Of a DNA stretch of 64,000 nt, positions 1 through 62,805 are shown piece by piece; the first letter of the stretch is position 1, and each line of letters begins with the position of its first letter. A program made the translations under genes and the position numbers. A model generated the notes under the pieces. The model saw only the letters and a program-made list of their open reading frames with translations. It was not told where the DNA came from and searched no databases. Source of the stretch: Hirudinaria manillensis (taxonomy: Eukaryota; Annelida; Clitellata; Hirudinida; Hirudinidae); NCBI GenBank assembly GCA_034509925.1, contig CM067527.1:8183501-8247500 (forward strand), given 5' to 3'.

Positions 1-1618
1 AGTCTTCCTCCTTTCGTCCTCTGCTGCCCTTTCAGCAGCCAATCGTTTCTCTTCGACTTCTCGTTGTTTCTTTCTTTTTTCCTAAAAATATTTTTAAATT
101 TTATATTCAAATATATGTTCAAATTTATATCAAAATTATTAATTATTAAAAAAAAATTGCGGTAGAAATTACATTCGAATTGATTGAACGGATTCAAAAT
201 TTAAAAAGTTAAACTGCTGCGCTTTTATTAATTTCTTAACTCGTGCTAAAAGCATGTCTTCACGTCATTTATAAGGACATGTCTTTCTTAATCTGAAAAT
301 ATTCGTTTGTTTAACATTAAAACCTGCCTAAAGGAACAGCTAGACATTGCATGGGAAAGGGTATCCATATGGACAGGTTGTCCCTTTGATCAGGCGTCTG
401 AATTAAACTACAGTAAAAATCGGTTCCTATAAAACGATCCTAAAGACAGGTTTTTACCATCTTCTTGGGTGCCCCAATTCAAAGGTTTTGCTATATTTCT
501 CATATCTCTGATATTCTCATATCTGTCTCAAGGCTATTCGTTGTCATGGATACGTTTTCACTCAACTTTTTGTAAATCTTAATACAATTGTTTCCGTCAA
601 ATAAATATGCGACTTGAAAGAAGTTTCTCATTAACTTATTCTTAATTAATTTAATATTTGATTTAATATTAACAAAACATTCAACGATGATAGAGTTCGA
701 ATGTACATGCCAATGCTACGATTAACAATAGAGATAGTGTTAGAGACAAAGGTTGATAATTGAACATTCATTTTTCTTTTTAAACATCTGCAAAGATAAA
801 AAATTCTTCACTTTATCTTTCTTTCTTGAATTAAATTCGGTAGTTTTTTTTTGTTTTTTTGTTTTAATAAATATTAAAATATTTTAATTAAGATTATTTA
901 ATGACATTTCGACTGACTAAATGGTTTAAATTTTCTATTATCCAAGACGTTTTACAAGTCATGCAAATAATATTTGCACCATTTGCGAACAAAATTTACA
1001 ATTGAAATTTGCCTGAAAATTGGTATTAAAAACGTTACAGTTTTATGATCATAAATTTTTCGATTTTCTTTTTTATTAATTTTTTAAGTAATTCGTTTAA
1101 ATGATACATGAGACAATTTGGAATCAAAAAACAAATCGAGAAGCGAGCATAACATAATCAAATAAACACTTTATGTAAATGTCAACATCTGTCGAACACA
1201 CGTTGTTTAATGTTACTTAAAATATTTACGTCTCGATTAACACTGTTTTATACCGTCATATAAAAATATGATGTAATCAAATAAACTAATTAATTAAATA
1301 ATTAATTAACGCAATATAGCGATGATGGAGATTATTATTATTATTAAACAACACTGTACTGATTACCAAGCATTGCAATTATTATTATTATTATTATTAT
1401 TATTTAACATTATATTAATTAATTAAATAATACTGTTTGATTTGTATTAACAAATTAATCGATAAAATACAAACGCTTCTCTTCCTGAGTTCTTCAATTT
1501 CCTCCTCCATTTTGTCCCTTTCCTGTCTGTTCAACTCCAACAATTCCTTTGCAGTGTCATCCAAGCCTGCTGAATCTGGTGCCTCTGCTCGTTTCTAACG
1601 ACGACGACGATGATGGAG

Positions 1619-1665
<47 letters not shown>

Positions 1666-2133
1666 AAGTTAATCGATTTAAAAATAATACTAAAAAGAAA
1701 TTGCTTCGTTTTAAAAACATTTGAAAAGTTGACACAAGACATCCAAGTAAATGTTTAACTTTACAAGTATACTTCTTATCGGAACATCAGAATGGCTATT
1801 TTTAAACTTGGAATTTCCAAATTAAGTGCACTGACAAACACCTGAAGCTATTTTGATTGCTCCATTTTAAGCGCTAAAAAAATTTATAGCTTTTTCTAGA
1901 AGATCAATCCACCTCCTTTAAATTATTATTATTATTATGTCATAATAATATTAGAAGCATCATGGTTTTTATTTTTAACACGCCACAATTTTTGCTACTC
2001 ATACGATTATGCTTGTTATAACTTATCGATTATTGTATATATATTATTATATTATAATTATATTATTATAAATATTATAAATTATGTAAAATAAAAAATA
2101 AATTCATAAAATAACTTTATTTATTTATTATTA

Positions 2134-2171
<38 letters not shown>

Positions 2172-3565
2172 GTTCGTTATTTGAATCAAGGTTGCTATTT
2201 TAAATGTTATTGTAAAATTAATTGACCCACTTAATTTACATAATTTATTCTAATGATGCATATTAATGAACAAAGAACATGTCGTAAATAAATAAATAAA
2301 TAAATAAATAAAACTCACTTTCGCTGGAGCAGGTTTCGATGGTTTGACAACCTCATGTTCGCTTCAATGTTTTTATTTCACATTTATTCACAATTATAAA
2401 CTATTTCAATTTTAATTCTAAATTTATGTTTATTTATTCATTGGTAGTATTTATTAAATTTATAATCCAGTAATTATAACACATAAGTAATTAAAATTAA
2501 ATTATACGTAAAAGTCGAGACATACTTTGTCTTGTTTGAATGATAACCTATCATTTGATACGATGCCAATCGATGAATTGTATACAACCTTAGTATGACT
2601 TTCATCATGTATATCTTTGTATATTCATACATCTATTATAACGCTAGAATTTCTTTTCTGTTTATTTTTGTATTTTCTGAGAAACATGTTTACTCAGTGA
2701 CGTCTCACCTTTCAGAATCGCTGCAAAATGTAAAAGAAAAATTATTCAAAAACAAATATTCGAAAGGTTTTAGAACAAGTTAAGAAATAAAATTAATTAC
2801 GATTTGTTCTTAATTCGTAAAATAATGTTTTAAAATCCGATGAAATCCTTTCCTGGAGATAGCATCTTTTCTATTTTGTTTGCAAAGAAGTTTGTCGACT
2901 TACAATCGTGTCAGGTGACCTTGACATTTAATCACTTTAAAATAACCTATTTATTACAATCTTTCACCATATCTTTCTAATGGTGATGGTGGTGGTGACG
3001 ACGACGACGATGATGATGACGAAAGTGATTTCACTCAGAGGAGCAAAGGAATGAATGCCCTATGAGTGGCATCAACTCTTCACTCCAAATGCAGAAATAT
3101 TACAAAAAATAATTTTAAAATAACAAACGGTGAAACAATCAATAAACGGATTACGTCCACAATGCTCGGGTTAATGCAGCTTTTTATGGACTCTTCGAAT
3201 ATCAATGTCACGTAAAGTTCAAGTGTGTACTCTTTTAAAAAAGAAAAAACACACCCCCATCTTCAATTTTAAAACGTATCAGTGAATAAAATGAATAAAC
3301 GCAAATATAAAAGAAATAATTTTAAAATAAAGTTGGATATTAGAAGCAAGAAACACGTTATTCAGAATAATTCAGAAATTCACCTGCGGTTTGATTCGTC
3401 GTCGGACATTTTTGAAGCAATTGAAGCGAATTTTCCGAAACTCGAGCGGGTCGAGAGAGTCAGACAAAGATAAACTTTTAAAGCTTAAAGGATGAATGCA
3501 GTTGCTTACCTACGCATCTCACTCGCTCGTTCCAATGCTCCAGCTGCCACATAAGTTTCATCGCT
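1..3565 (-). CDS. Charged coiled-coil protein, N-terminal part, possibly troponin T-like (partial)
   Basis: Four minus-strand exons join in phase: 3565-3510, 2361-2319, 1594-1475 and 81-1. The gene runs off the left edge. Donors are GTAAGC, GTGAGT and GTTTGT; acceptors end in CCAG, GAAG, TTAG and TTAG. The joined 100 residues start SDETYVAAGALERASEMR, pass through a short Pro/Lys linker (KPSKPAPAKK), then become a very charged helix with EEEIEELRKRS and EKRLAAERAAEDERRK. Invertebrate troponin T has a similar Glu/Arg/Lys helix after a short SDE start, so that family is my best guess, but no diagnostic tropomyosin-binding segment lies inside the window. The initiator codon was not located. The only ATG followed directly by GT between 3566 and 4100 on this strand is at 4048-4046, inside the X-box. 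The gene is divergent from DNAI1. Other coiled-coil families remain possible. Confidence 0.5.
1330..2311. repeat. Cluster of ATT and AAAT microsatellites
   Basis: Several (ATT)n tracts lie in the introns of the minus-strand gene: about 1330-1347, 1379-1405, 1619-1664 (the longest pure run, about 15 units) and 2126-2172. An (AAAT)n run follows at 2284-2311. The same motif recurs across the window and also serves as the tail and target of the LINE at 61.9-62.8 kb. Confidence 0.9.
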
Positions 3566-4041
3566 CTGGATAAATCAAATGTTTTGAATCCTAATTGTTT
3601 GCAGCCAGTGGTCAAAATATAAAAAAAAAACTAATTTTTTTCCAGAAAAATGCTTAAACTTGTAACTTTTTTGTCCATCATTTCTGTGACGCAAAGGACT
3701 TTTGCATGCACGTGGTGATTAAACATTGTTCAGCCGAAATGCAACTCTCCGAATGTGTGGCAAGTTGCAAGTTGCACACCTGCTCTTTCTAAGTCGACAT
3801 TGTTCCCAAAACAATTTGCTCTGAGCGTTTTTCTTTTCACTGTTTTTCACCACCTCCTAATGAGTTTGTCAGGTTCCTTCTCACTCGATTATCGGACTGA
3901 AGATATGCGACCTACATTTTCTTTTTTAGGAGAATGCAACCTTATAGAGTTAAAAATTATAATTTAACAACTTTTGAAATAAATTAATGATTGGAATTGG
4001 TGAAATAAAATATTTTCCTAAAAGCGCAAGTTTTTGTTTCG

Positions 4042-4055
4042 GTTACCATGGCAAT
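4042..4055. promoter_or_regulatory. Near-consensus X-box (RFX binding site)
   Basis: The 14-mer GTTACCATGGCAAT (ATTGCCATGGTAAC on the other strand) matches the palindromic X-box GTTGCCATGGCAAC at all but two positions. RFX factors bind this motif in promoters of ciliary genes. It lies about 370 bp upstream of the first firm DNAI1 exon and about 480 bp from the nearest exon of the divergent minus-strand gene. Position and match are seen; function is inferred. Confidence 0.65.
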
Positions 4056-4408
4056 AAATTCGTCTCTAACGATGAAAGCAGGTTCTGGTTTACTTCGATA
4101 AACAAGTTTATGGCTGTTGTAAAGCAGCGTTTTTTCAGTTGCAAATCATGAAATCTTATACGAAATTGGTCTGTTTTTTATATTGTGGATCCGTTTTTAC
4201 ATACTTCAAAGTGTTTTGATTTAATTTAAAGCATTGTTTGCACCCGACCTACTCATTTTCTTGATTAGCTGCGTGAGCGAAAAAGTATTTTAAAAAAAGA
4301 ATAATTTTTGACGAGTTCTTTATTAAAGCCGTACTTTTCTAAAATTTGAAACATTCTTCAGTTTAAAATGTTCTTCCAAAACAGACCGATGCTTCGAGCG
4401 TATCTCAG

Positions 4409-6106: not shown

Positions 6107-9100
6107 TCTAATCAATTGTGTGATAAATCAGGACAAGACCACGTTTACTGAACCACCTCCGACAGTGGATTTTGACGGAAGCGTGACTCAATGGAGCATC
6201 CACGATGCTTATCAACAGGATTTCGAGAGGAATGTGAGATCCAAATTATCTTTCGATCGAGTTTTAAAATTATTTTATTTATTACCTTTTAAGGCAATTA
6301 TTAAATTATTAAAGATTAATTTCTGAACGCTAAAAATAAAAAGCGCTAAAAAACGATGCTCGTTGAAATATTTATTCGCAAATTAATTTATTCGCGGTTA
6401 CGCTCCGAGCAAGGACCGACCAATTAAGATGCAACCCGCACGGAATCAACAGGTGCTAATGCGTACCTGACGAGCGAAAGATTGTCGATTGAAGAAATAA
6501 ATCCCTTTCATTTCAGCATGGAAAGGACAAGAAGCAAGGGAAGGAAGTAGGAGGAATAAAGCAGGAATTGCCTGAGGTTATTTCAGTACATTGTTGCAAC
6601 TTGTTTCAAGCTTTAAAATTACAGTTATCAAAATTAAATGCTATTGAAACTATTGGTTTACGAGAATTGTTTTAGTCGCAATTATTGATAATTTAGCCGA
6701 TAATTTGAGTATGATTATTATTTAATGTTTATAATTCTTTAATTAATCGTGAAATCATCATCCACTCTGCAGATCTCAGCAAAACATTGCAGTTTAAAAT
6801 CTGCCAAAATCATTGAAAGGATGGTGTGCCAAAACATGTTTGATGAAATTGCCATGGGTGAGTATCAAGATGATGATGATGATGATGATGATGACGATGA
6901 CAAAGATACTTGGGTGGTTTTGATCCAAATATTATTAATTCATCTATCTGGCTGTTTTGATGATGATGATGATGATAATCTTTTTATGCAATAAGTAATA
7001 AATAAATAAATTATAATCATCTGGTTCTCTGCTTGTTTTTAATCTTTTCTAATCAAAAGCCAATGAGGCTTTTTTGAGAGAGAATTCTTTGAGCTTCAAA
7101 CGATCAAATTTTCTACAATTTTTTTTATGATTCAAACTCGGATGCATTTACAAAACATTTTTTAACAAACACCCTTTTGAAGCATAAATAATCAATCATC
7201 CAATAATTTGTATGGCTAATTATTATTAATTATTACATGACGTGGTCGTTGAATATAAAATTTCATTTAGATTTAATAATTTATGGCTAATTATTATTAA
7301 TTATTACATGACGTGGTCGTTGAATATTAAATTTCATTTAGATTTTAAATACTACGAGGACCTGTCAGACGAGTTCAGAGAACCGAAGGGGACGTTGTTG
7401 CCTTTGTGGTCCTTCAAGTATGGGTTCAAGTCTCGTCTCAGGTCCGAAGATTTGAAGAATTTGTGCATCACTGGCATCTGTTGGAGCAAACTTCACTTTG
7501 ATCTTTTTGCAGCCTCTTTCGGATCATGTGTGCAGTTATTTTCATTATTATGTTATTTAATTAATTCTTTACAAGATGTTGATTTTTAAAACTAAAACCT
7601 CTAAAGTTTATTATATTTATATACTAAAAATAAAAGCCAGTAATTTGATTTTAAATGATTTTAATTATAAAATTTTGTTTAAAAGTTAATCATTAGACAT
7701 AAAATCGTTAAACTTTTCAGATGACTTTGAAAAGCAGGGACGCGGTGCTCTTTTGTATTACTCCCTTAAGAACCCCTCCTACCCCGAGCACGTGTTCCTC
7801 ACCCCATGCGGGGCCACGTGCCTGGACCTCCACCCGAAACACCCCCACCTCGCCGTCGTGGGACTCCACGACGGAAACGTGGCCGTCTTCGATGTCATCA
7901 GAAACACTCATTCCCCTGTTTTTATCAGCAACGCAACAACTGGCAAGCATCTGGACATCGTCTGGCAGGTCATAGATTTTTTAAATAAAATCTGTTTAAC
8001 TCTTATTATTCTTGATATTTTAATTAATTATTATTATTATTAATTATTATTATTTATTAGTGTTTATGTCAATTGAATGTATTTATGAAATTATTTGCAA
8101 TTTTAAATCCTTCCGATGTTTCGTCGCATCAGGTAAAATGGCAGGATGAAGATGGCGACTTCAAATTCTTCTCGATATCGGGAGATGGACAAGTCTTGTG
8201 TTGGACGATATTGAAGGTGTCAATATAATTTCCTTTGGAATATTAAGTTATTATAATTTTAATGCCACTTCAGATTTTTTTATTTTCTTTGCAAACTAAA
8301 TTTTCAGAATGAATTGATCAGCAGACTTGTGATCGAGTTGTCTCTGACCAAACCAGACATCCTTAATAATCAGCTTGATACTCTTCCTGTCCCCCTAAAT
8401 GGTGATATAATTGAAATAATTTTTAATTATTTAATCATAAAAGTTGTGACAGAAGTAAATTATTAGTTATTATGCATAATTTCAGCATCTGGGACGACCT
8501 TTGACTTCCACCCTTCTGACGATCAGTTGTACATTGTGGGTACGGAGGAAGGAATGGTACATTTGTGTGCAAAGAATCAAACCAGTAGGTACCTCGGCTC
8601 GTACGATGCCCACTCCGGTCCGGTGCACAAAGCCGTGTGGAATCATTACCACCCTGCCGTTTTCATGACCTGCAGCTACGATTGGACGATCAAGATCTGG
8701 GACAGGTCGATAAACGGAAGGTCGCTACAAATTTTTAACTTCGACGTGAAGATTTTTAATTGCACTGTTTAAATGGACGTCGGGGTTTTTCCAGGTTTCC
8801 GTTGCTGGTCTTTGATCTCGGACATCCCGTGTCGGACGTGGAATGGTCGCCTTATTCCTCCACCGTCTTTGCTGCCGTCACCATCGACGGGAAGGTTGTG
8901 GTTCCGTGCTCCTTAAACGAAGATTTCTCATTAAATAAAAATTCCCTTTTAAGTAAAATTGTTAAATAATAAATTTAATTAACGACCTCTTAAACAATCA
9001 GGTGCACGTGTTCGACTTAAATGTCAACAAATATGAAAGTCTGTGCGAGCAACAAATCGGCAAAAGGAAGAAGTCGAAACTGACGCACGTGTCGTTCAAT

Positions 9101-59325: not shown

Positions 59326-61883
59326 AAGTTTCGCTTTCGATCTGAATCTTTATTCCCAGTGACTATTGTTTGACCTCTTTTATTTTTGTTTTGAACTGAA
59401 ACGTTCTAGTAACGATCATGATGATGATGATGATGATGATGGTGGTGGTAGTAATGGTAGTAGTGATGGTGATGATGATGGTGGTAATCGTGTTGCTTGA
59501 ATTTATGTGACAGTGACTACGGTAAAGAAATTGAAGATAACGATGATGAAGAACCCAATGATGATACCTCACTGATTAGTGTTGCCTCTCATGACATTCC
59601 AAAACATTACGTAGATTTATATTTTTAGCCAATTTATAAATTACCTTGACATTATCAAAACAATTTTATGTTGATTAATTGTCATTAATAATTAAATTAT
59701 TTAAAATTACGTTTGCAAATACAATCAGCGACCTAGTAAGTTATATTTGGCTTGCATTAAAATAACATCATTGTTAACACCATAGCAACATTATTACAAG
59801 TTCTGTTTATATGAATTATATATTTGAATCACATTTGTGTTATAACAATTATTAATGGTAATAAATTAAGATTTATTATGTATTTGAAAATGTAATCAAA
59901 TTTTAACCGCTTAATAATAATCGTATGGAAATCGATTTATTAATTTAATGCCGATTCCACAAGATATTTTCAAATTATTTAAGAATTGTTTGGAAAAGAA
60001 AATTCTTTTTCAATTCTTGAGTTCATAACCTTTCATATTTTTATGGAATTGGTGAAATTATAATAAAATGTAATTCATAATATTATTAATGTTTATAATT
60101 AGTTTGCAAATAATCACTTCAGTCTGTGTTTATTGTAAATCCATTCATTCATTGTAATGCTGTAATGATTTGAATCTTCCGTGGTTATTTTATTTTTATA
60201 ATATTATTTCATTGAAATGTCTTAATAATTATATTAATAATATTATCATTGCTATTACTAATTGTTATAATTTCGTTAATATTTAAATGACGAGTAACTC
60301 AACGTGTAATTGAACTTAACTTACTTTTGCCGAATTAATAATATATTGAATAAAAGATCAAATTAATTTTTGTAATTATTGTAAATAAGAGCATTAAAAT
60401 CATTTGTAAAAATACTTGTTCAAAATCTTGTATATATGCTGATATAAAGTTTTTATTTTTGTATTTATTGTGATTAAATCGAGTCATTCAAATATCAATT
60501 GCTGTTGTCTTTTAAATATGTTTTCAGAATTATTTTCATAATTATTAAATATGTTTGAAATTCTCATGTCATTCGAAACGAGTTCTTTGTGTTCGATGAA
60601 ACGCACCCCGACGACCCAGATTGGCTGACGTTAAATTTAGAATATCCTTTAAAAGCAAACCATCGACGAATGTCTGAATGATATTCCAAAATGGCAAACT
60701 AATGTCTAACATCTGAGATCTTGGCAACGTGCCATCTATCTTTTCATCCGCGCCAGGAAGCTTCTGATTGGTCGTATAAGTGGTCCAGAGAATGAACGGA
60801 AGTGCATTTTTAGTTTCGTGGGCTATTTTTAAAACCATGGTAACAATTGGAAGACGAAACTGAAAGTAACATCAAACTCGAAACAATAGCAAATGAAATG
60901 ATTTTAAGAATTTTTAATTATTTAAAATTCGTTGGGAAATGTTTTTCCGTTCGTTCATTGTTTCTGTGTGATTTTTTTTTCCGGTTAAAATTTCAGAGAA
61001 TTTCTTACAAATGATTAATGCTTTTAAAATTTTATTTTCACAGAAACTGGAAAAAAAAAACAAGAAAACAATATGCGTCAAGTACAAGAATCACGTAATA
61101 TGATCAAATTGTAGTCCTCGTGCATATTTTACGACTGTCAATTTGTTTCTGATTTTAAAGATGGATGTTTGGCTTTTAAAACGTTCTTCTGAAAAGTTAT
61201 CTCGAAGTTTTTCTTCCTACTTTCCCACTTTGTTTCTTATTCTGTTTGATTCGTCTCCATTCGTGTCATTAATTTTTAATTTTTAAAAGTTTAAAATGGA
61301 CGTCAGGTGCACGTCATTGTATTATGTAATGATACTCTACAGAATATTTATTTTCCTATTCCTGGAATGTAATAACATTTACAGGTGATTCATGCTCTAA
61401 TCACAGTGCTGTAAGGTTTTTACGCACATTCATTCGTGGGTCGTATTCACGCGAATGTACCATGCGTCATTCAGTCCAGTAAGAAATGCATCATGCATCA
61501 TTCAGTCCAGTAAGAAATGCATCATGCATCATTCAGTCCAGTAAGAAATGCATCATGCATCACCTCAGTCCATGCATCATCTGCCATACCACTCCGTGAA
61601 GTGAAGTGGAAATTAATCAAATAAATTGTTTTTTGCTTGAATTTCAACTGTCAGGAACTTCTTTTTTTAGGCTTTAAGTTTTGCATGACATATTGTTGAA
61701 ATTAAATATATTTATATATATTTTAAAAAAATATTTTCAGGGTTTTTAACTTTTCCCAAAATAATTGAAAGAAATGTGGGCCAGTCCTTTTAAAAAAAAT
61801 CAATAAACTATTATTTGATTAAACTTCGAGTTGATACATTTGCGCTTACATTTAACACAATTAATTTATTTATTTATTGACTA
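59326..61883. other. GPCR 3' flank, no recognised gene
   Basis: A GAT/GGT-rich tract lies at about 59417-59485. From 59580 the sequence is strongly AT-rich. A less AT-rich island at 60575-60840 is open on the minus strand (89 codons from ATG 60838, with KLPGADEKIDGTLPRSQML), but no family fits. An inverted CCAAT occurs at about 60767-60771. Confidence 0.5.
61462..61575. repeat. 31-bp minisatellite, three full copies and a partial
   Basis: Units start at 61462, 61493 and 61524, each of the form ATGCATCATTCAGTCCAGTA plus 11 further bases. The first unit differs only by ATGCGT for ATGCAT. A shortened fourth unit follows with CACCTCAGTCC. Unit boundaries fall at TGCATCATGCATC, so each junction has the palindrome ATGCAT. 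Confidence 0.95.
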
Positions 61884-62764
61884 AATAATAATAATAATCC
61901 GATAATTGGAATGAGTGATTGGACTTCAGCAGCGGTTCCAAGAGTTCCAAAAGTTCCATCTGGCCAATACATCAAATGCATAAAAGTCCGAGCGGCCGCC
62001 CTTCACTGCAGACTCCGAGCATCGAGATGGAATCCTCTGGCTTCAATGAGATGCGGGGAGGGCTATAATTCTTTCGAATCGCTGGGCCACATGATCCAGA
62101 GATGCCCGAGATCGGATGGTCCAAGGCATGAAAGACACAACGCTGTCGTTAGGGAATTAGAACGGGAATTACGAAAAAGGGACTATACTACGGTAATAGA
62201 GCCCCGTATTCCCACAGAAAAGGGACTCAAAATTCCTGATTTGTGTGCCTGGAGACGTGACCTCTACATAGTGACTGATTATGATTTAGACAAGTGTCAT
62301 GAGAGCAAGGTTTCAAAGTACGACATTAAAGATGTTCATGATTGGATGTTGAGGAATGCCCCAGTCGGCGTCCAAAGAATGCTTCCGAAGGTTGGCGCCT
62401 GCGTTTGCAACTGGAGAGGAGTCATGAGTGCAGAATCATACAGATTCTGGAGAGAGTGCGGCGCTTCGAAGACGAGTTTAATGTACGTTGTGCTCTCGGT
62501 TCTCAGTCACACTTGCAAAATCTGGAGGGCTCGCAGGTGCCCACTTCCGAGGGCAATCGCACTTTTTCGGACTGCGAATTCTCAATGACATTGGCAGTTG
62601 ACGTTACTCGGCGCGTTCGATCGCGATTTCACCTTCTGACCGAATGTCCAGGGTGATCTCGGGCCCTAGTGCGGACACTAAACTTTGGAGAGGCCGTCGG
62701 AATATTGTTGTTTGTGTTTTGGGTGTGAGGCCGAGAAAATAAAAGAAAAAATAATAATAATAAC

Positions 62765-62800
<36 letters not shown>

Positions 62801-62805
62801 CCGAT
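61884..62805 (+). mobile_element. 5'-truncated LINE with restriction-like endonuclease (R4/Dong-like), with target-site duplication
   Basis: The body runs from 61904 to about 62785. The bases (AAT)5 followed by CCGAT stand at the left edge (61884-61903) and again at the right edge (to 62805), the right copy merging with the element's own AAT-rich tail. This is the expected target-site duplication of target-primed reverse transcription. Only the 3' part of the element is present. The AAT context and the endonuclease type fit the R4/Dong clade, which is known to target TAA repeats. Clade assignment is inferred, not computed. Confidence 0.75.
61911..62588 (+). CDS. LINE C-terminal domain: zinc knuckle and restriction-like endonuclease
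   Basis: The 225-codon open frame starts just inside the element boundary, so its ATG is probably internal to the original ORF. Order: a short segment after the RT thumb (KVRAAALHCRLRA), a knuckle (RCGEGYNSFESLGHMIQRC) in which the second Cys of CxxC is Tyr here, then GPRHERHNAVVREL, and the endonuclease domain with the catalytic PD pair (KIPDLCAW), TDYDLD and KVSKYDIKD. Conserved Trp and Cys residues follow (CNWRGVMSAES). The frame is intact over its whole length with no internal stop, so the copy is fairly young. RLE-type LINEs (R2, R4, NeSL, Dong) share this layout. Confidence 0.8.
   Translation: MSDWTSAAVPRVPKVPSGQYIKCIKVRAAALHCRLRASRWNPLASMRCGEGYNSFESLGHMIQRCPRSDGPRHERHNAVVRELERELRKRDYTTVIEPRIPTEKGLKIPDLCAWRRDLYIVTDYDLDKCHESKVSKYDIKDVHDWMLRNAPVGVQRMLPKVGACVCNWRGVMSAESYRFWRECGASKTSLMYVVLSVLSHTCKIWRARRCPLPRAIALFRTANSQ

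Follow-up and report, generated by a model that had tools for sequence, protein, structure and literature searches.

The window, by which we mean the whole 64-kb stretch of Hirudinaria manillensis DNA analysed (C2:8183501-8247500 in the 148.4-Mb, 23-contig assembly that we searched), carries a LINE fragment lying in an AAT repeat, and the question raised by this locus is whether the repeat is the target of the element and what kind of LINE would choose such a target. The original prediction was of a young LINE copy of the R4/Dong type. We conclude that the feature is very probably a dead insertion, truncated at the 5' end, from a LINE family that was active recently, encodes a restriction-like endonuclease (RLE) and targets TAA/AAT microsatellites. 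We refer to this family as family 1, and discuss its affiliation after the evidence on the copies and their target.

The copy in the window

The LINE copy occupies 61904-62749 on the plus strand, on which all the window features given here are read; it is truncated at the 5' end and has an A-rich 3' end (GTGAGGCCGAGAAAATAAAA...). The upstream flank at 61884-61903 is (AAT)5-CCGAT, and the same 20 nt, again ending in CCGAT, are found without a mismatch at 62786-62805, so that the intact target-site duplication (TSD) that had been claimed is indeed present. The AAT tract at 62750-62800 (17 units of period 3 with 95% matches) comprises the 3' tail plus target repeat. There are seven perfect AAT tracts of at least 6 units in the window, counting the 3' flank of the element itself, and while the genome had been described as packed with such tracts, which do occur, their density in the window is modest. 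Shortly upstream of the insertion, at 61454-61572, there is a 31-bp tandem repeat of 3.8 copies (AATGCATCATGCATCATTCAGTCCAGTAAGA).

The open frame at 61881-62588 (stop codon at 62586-62588) contains the C-terminus of the LINE ORF. The remnant itself (61904-62588) consists of a linker, a CX3CX7HX4C zinc knuckle in which the second Cys is now Tyr, the RLE and the stop, and it matches the knuckle and RLE end of a 1160-aa ORF found elsewhere in the genome. That ORF aligns to R2Bm with an E value of 1.4e-112 over RT, knuckle and RLE, which bears out the assignment of the fragment to a truncated RLE-type LINE.

Copies and structure of the family

A DNA search of the genome with the window copy gave 49 matches. 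Of 128 candidates 40 were scored, one being the window copy, and the other 39 are copies with BLAST identity of 90-96%, in some cases along only a part of the stretch. A 3'-end pattern, with up to 3 mismatches allowed, has 93 matches in the genome (49 on the plus and 44 on the minus strand), with none for either reversed control, and these 3' ends are dispersed over contigs C1-C13. The corresponding 5'-end pattern has 43 matches, again with none in the controls. The 20 copies taken with 9-kb surroundings were those with the best scores against the window copy, and the sample is thus biased to good matches; another 30 5' ends were added to it, together with 31 3' sides and 10 junctions from truncated copies.

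A full copy measures about 4.0 kb, with a 5' UTR of about 340 nt, the single 1160-aa ORF and a short 3' UTR that ends GTGAGGCCGAGAAAATAAA..., followed by A-rich sequence and TAA repeats. All 20 copies examined terminate in the A-rich tail, mostly with TAA after it. Nine of the 20 have an unbroken ORF, a figure to be read with the bias of that sample in mind, and identities of 99-100% occur in the family. Near-identical copies, some of them ORF-intact, are in keeping with recent activity of family 1. We also considered a fixed-length non-autonomous family; the common start of the matches at query position 21 is the window copy's own truncation point, and longer copies exist, so this was dropped.

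Age and damage of the window copy

The window copy is 93.8-97.6% identical, gaps left out, to 22 other copies in an alignment drawn from the 20 fetched loci. It departs from the majority of these at 19 bases, and 12 of the changes are private to it. It also has a private 9-bp insertion, absent from all 22 others. Eleven of the private changes are inside the ORF, and as eight alter the protein and three are silent they fit an unselected copy. Two of them make the TGC to TAT change at 62065-62066 in the zinc knuckle (62052-62105), where all 22 others differ. The Tyr for Cys had been remarked on as unusual and is certainly there; it is a mutation of the window copy alone and no family trait, as CGEGC is present in all 21 knuckles from the 20 fetched loci.

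The coding region had also been called uninterrupted, which is true of the reading frame but not of the RLE active site, where a 21-bp in-frame deletion between 62275 and 62276 removes seven residues directly after the second RLE aspartate. This deletion is not in 21 of the 22 aligned copies, but the remaining one, the diverged L016b, has an overlapping 24-bp gap, and we therefore no longer treat the deletion as strictly private. The window copy and L016b have no base in common that is absent from the other 21 copies, so that the deletion may or may not be of common descent: the two gaps may be separate losses or alternatively an old common loss.

The terminal branch of the window copy is 0.015, in a range for the other 22 of 0 to 0.044; most of these are at 0 to 0.005, and the two that are longer are L023 (0.020) and L016b (0.044). 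With 12 private substitutions the copy is not among the youngest, and the term young is better applied to the family: the window copy is dead and of moderate age, within a family having very recent members.

TAA tracts as the target

We took 61 5' junctions, a selected part of the family, and dropped three that run into N, leaving 58 that are readable. In 55 of the 58 the 120 nt upstream contain a sense (TAA) run of at least 4 units (in 56, one of at least 3 units), while antisense TTA runs of at least 3 and at least 4 units are found in only 4 and 3 junctions respectively. The background, taken from 8,755 sampled window positions, is 0.6% on the plus and 2.4% on the minus strand for matching sense runs of at least 4 units, and random insertion is thereby ruled out. 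The longest TAA run within 250 nt of the 5' junctions has a median of 21 units (range 1 to 82), and L046 is the sole readable case with no sense run of at least 3 units within 250 nt upstream. For the 3' side, a sense run of at least 3 units within 200 nt is found in 43 of 51 copies and is lacking in the other 8. Tabulation of the flanks, which had been suggested as a check, thus upholds the AAT/TAA microsatellite as the target, and the family-wide pattern at the 5' junctions excludes chance for the flanks of the window copy. Family 1 targets TAA/AAT tracts, nearly always with the repeat in the sense orientation.

N runs abut the 5' junctions of L022, L063 and L067, and perhaps long TAA tracts break the assembly. 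In L039, L044 and L064 the 5' end is directly preceded by a brief repetition of the element's own sequence, as might result from slippage or a jump in reverse transcription.

The protein and its relationship to R2

The family-1 ORF is R2-like in plan to judge from its sequence, with a C2H2 finger and two Myb-like repeats predicted ahead of RT, a CCHC knuckle and the RLE. The finger is at aa 32-53, and the N-terminal region with finger and Myb aligns to R2Bm 113-215 (27.1 bits, i-Evalue 9.3e-06). The two Myb-like units are suggested by an internal repeat, aa 73-133 against 168-228, whose score of 68 was reached by none of 5000 shuffles. A Pfam search of the ORF matched no Myb or finger family, and AlphaFold on the N-terminus alone gave a mean pLDDT of 41, a confidence too low for use. 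The residues that we take to be catalytic in the RLE were positioned through the R2Bm alignment. The PDB matches of the ORF were confined to R2s, L1, a group II intron RT and retron RTs. A scan of viral contigs for relatives gave nine stretches that fit a pattern, none of which was confirmed.

The single ORF, in which a CCHC knuckle and a PD-(D)-K RLE come after the RT, places family 1 among the RLE-encoding LINEs (the R2/R4/HERO/NeSL/CRE group). By its zinc finger and Myb N-terminus it would be an R2, but not by its sites, as R2 is defined by 28S rDNA whereas the family-1 3' ends are spread over C1-C13 and the 5' junctions are in TAA tracts. R2 lineage D (R2Bm, PDB 8gh6) has the same C2H2 and Myb N-terminus, RT, CX3CX7HX4C knuckle and PD-D-K RLE, with 30.7-31.7% identity to family 1 over 599 sites; family 1 differs from it in having a TAA target in place of 28S rDNA, TSDs reaching to about 235 nt past the repeat, and a second Myb-like repeat. 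A single CCHH finger is used as a mark of R2D (PMC5035012), and one lineage-D R2 from a fish is reported to have its Myb duplicated (PMC13188248). R2 lineage A (R2Tg, 9dou/9nl3; 9nl2) is homologous over RT, linker and RLE, with 30.1-31.8% identity to family 1, and differs in having three zinc fingers as described in PMC13188248, a CX2C knuckle in the aligned chains, and the 28S target.

With phmmer, family 1 (802 aa) against R2Bm gives 352 bits, and R2Bm (715 aa) against R2Tg 295 bits. Families 1, 2 and 5, the last two being found beside family-1 copies, have 28.8-32.9% identity to each R2 (R2Bm, 9nl2 and R2Tg), and R2Bm has 30.3% identity to 9nl2 and 34.2% to R2Tg. The unrooted tree of families 1, 2 and 5 with R2-D and R2-A is a three-way split, with stems near 0.9. 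In its RT region family 1 is roughly as distant from R2-D and from R2-A as the two are from one another. This would fit a third R2-type branch, and also a sister clade such as R4 or HERO.

Family 1 would thus work like Dong with a protein whose plan looks like that of R2, and the R4/Dong label can be no more than tentative. One possible account, less likely than not, is that a third deep R2-type LINE lineage, with one C2H2 finger and a duplicated Myb-like domain, has swapped 28S rDNA for TAA microsatellites and so converged on the niche of Dong, and that the tracts, shared with a distant RLE lineage, serve as self-renewing pads for head-to-tail stacking of different LINEs.

A reading with a somewhat stronger claim, though still short of an even chance, is that family 1 is a genuine R4/Dong element that happens to retain an N-terminal zinc finger. 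Targeting of (TAA)n by Dong elements is described for an ostracod and for most insects, molluscs and cnidarians, and the elements also have a Myb-like domain (PMC7998251; PMC3774820). The sites that mark the group are (TAA)n for Dong and rDNA for R4, and by the former, at 55 of the 58 junctions, family 1 would be one of them; R4 is moreover described as related to R2 (PMC3774820), and that R2Bm and R2Tg are slightly closer to each other than is any of our families to an R2 is as expected for a sister clade. However Dong-like elements are described as having a divergent Myb-like domain with zinc fingers absent (PMC7998251), whereas in family 1 the Myb-like repeats are accompanied by the C2H2 finger which aligns to R2Bm. 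Thus Dong of Bombyx mori and the Dong-like LINEs of the R4 clade resemble family 1 as RLE LINEs with a (TAA)n target (PMC3774820; PMC7998251), and differ from it in the N-terminus, the comparison being with Dong as described in PMC7998251.

A possible second difference from Dong concerns the HDV-like ribozyme reported in Dong, R2 and R4 (PMC3774820), which we did not see in family 1. At the 5' end Rfam gave no ribozyme family among matches at E values up to 5, a rough descriptor matched weakly in one of six copies (with any match in 15 of 100 shuffles), and the fold energy is not unusual (z -0.64); none of the three gave a convincing HDV-like ribozyme. Also weighing against the R4/Dong label is the presence in the same genome of a far more different TAA-flanked RLE lineage, fam3, which could equally be the Dong one.

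It is rather unlikely, in our estimate, that family 1 belongs to HERO or to some other clade related to R2 (the BLAG group, for instance) and prefers microsatellites as a member of it. Some HERO families are described as microsatellite-specific (PMC4640811), and the BLAG LINEs of the German cockroach are, like family 1, R2-related and located outside 28S, but they are described as non-site-specific (PMC7650587) and family 1 is site-specific.

To return to the possible third R2-type lineage, TAA-targeting LINEs are already known, and what appears to be new, on the basis of predicted domains, is the pairing of that target with an R2-type zinc finger and Myb N-terminus. Within the R2 superclade PMC5035012 gives other targets for R8 and R9 only, and adds two non-specific families; we found no TAA-specific R2-type element in searches of the open-licence PMC literature. 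The family touches on the open question of how zinc finger and Myb domains alter specificity, at a time when R2 proteins are under development for transgene insertion (PMC13188248).

Target-site duplications and a possible mechanism

Among the 51 copies for which both sides are available, the last (TAA) run of at least 4 units is less than 8 nt from the element in 23 and at least 8 nt from it in 27, and L046 has no such run. In the 23 the 5' break is within 7 nt of the repeat, and a TSD would be hidden in the repeat. In the 27 the intervening sequence can be looked for on the other side, and it is strongly duplicated in nine (L017, L039, L042, L047, L052, L056, L061, L065 and L068) and weakly in four (L025, L037, L060 and L062); no convincing duplication was found in the other 14 copies with unique sequence before the element, the match in L031 being far away. 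L056 is only an apparent exception to a start in the repeat, as its alignment of 237 nt starts at a TAA tract lying 234 nt upstream. TSDs are thus present in part of the family-1 copies, beginning in the TAA tract and extending up to about 235 nt beyond it. That the tracts are by-products, with a UAA tail carried by the element and the repeats expanded after random insertion, would suit the tails of the 20 copies described above, but is hardly tenable given that TAA is also present 5' of the element, 5'-truncated copies included, and is contradicted by the nine strong TSDs, which hold TAA and unique downstream sequence on both sides.

Insertion into a TAA target may be pictured as follows. The RLE would nick the bottom strand inside the TAA tract, and the TTA-rich 3' end so formed would prime reverse transcription of the element RNA from its A-rich/UAA tail, as in target-primed reverse transcription. 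The top strand would be cut afterwards at a loosely placed site, 0 to about 235 nt downstream. A specific TAA nick with a loose second cut downstream would give a duplication whose start is in the repeat and whose end may fall in unique DNA, and an early stop of reverse transcription would give 5'-truncated copies such as that in the window. With its many copies, near-identical and ORF-intact members among them, and with TSDs that end 0 to about 235 nt past the repeat, the family could provide a testable system for retargeting and loose second-strand cleavage.

Stacking of LINEs in TAA tracts

In 5 of the 20 fetched 9-kb loci a piece of another RLE LINE adjoins the family-1 copy with only TAA-type or A-rich repeat between them, so that stacking does occur in some loci. 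The orders are fam3 - fam2 - family 1 in L009, fam2 - fam3b - family 1 in L019, fam3 - family 1 in L014, family 1 - family 1 in L024 and family 1 - fam5 in L028. At the junctions of L038 and L066 there is also a family-1 tail upstream.

Over 712 aa, fam2 and family 1 are 50% identical. In BLASTP, fam3b matches R2Tg weakly (E 7e-6) and family 1 not convincingly (best E 0.023), and as it barely matches family 1 yet lies in the same tracts, there are at least two distant RLE lineages in these TAA tracts. The TAA-flanked fam3 pieces are at L009:980-1612 and at L019 oriented 2397-3305, with a CX2C knuckle (L019 copy) and RLE motifs ANRPD...IDVSVP / IDIAVP; the TAA flanks of fam3 rest on three copies, C-terminal pieces only, which were found beside family-1 copies and are thus a biased sample.

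With TAA tracts at both ends of an insertion the landing pad would be regenerated, and more LINEs could stack head-to-tail in the same orientation; we infer that regenerated pads may be the cause of the stacking, which suggests a feedback between LINEs and microsatellites.

Three further loci may be mentioned. In L019 (C7, minus strand), at oriented positions 61-4109, the three LINE pieces are in the same orientation and the TAA tracts that separate them total more than 100 units each. In L015 a short fam2-like stretch at oriented 8876-8983 lies about 250 nt past the TAA tract downstream of the family-1 copy, and was excluded from the stacking count. At C4:4395902-4404617 (minus strand) family 1 is present three times within 9 kb, the copies all having the same orientation.
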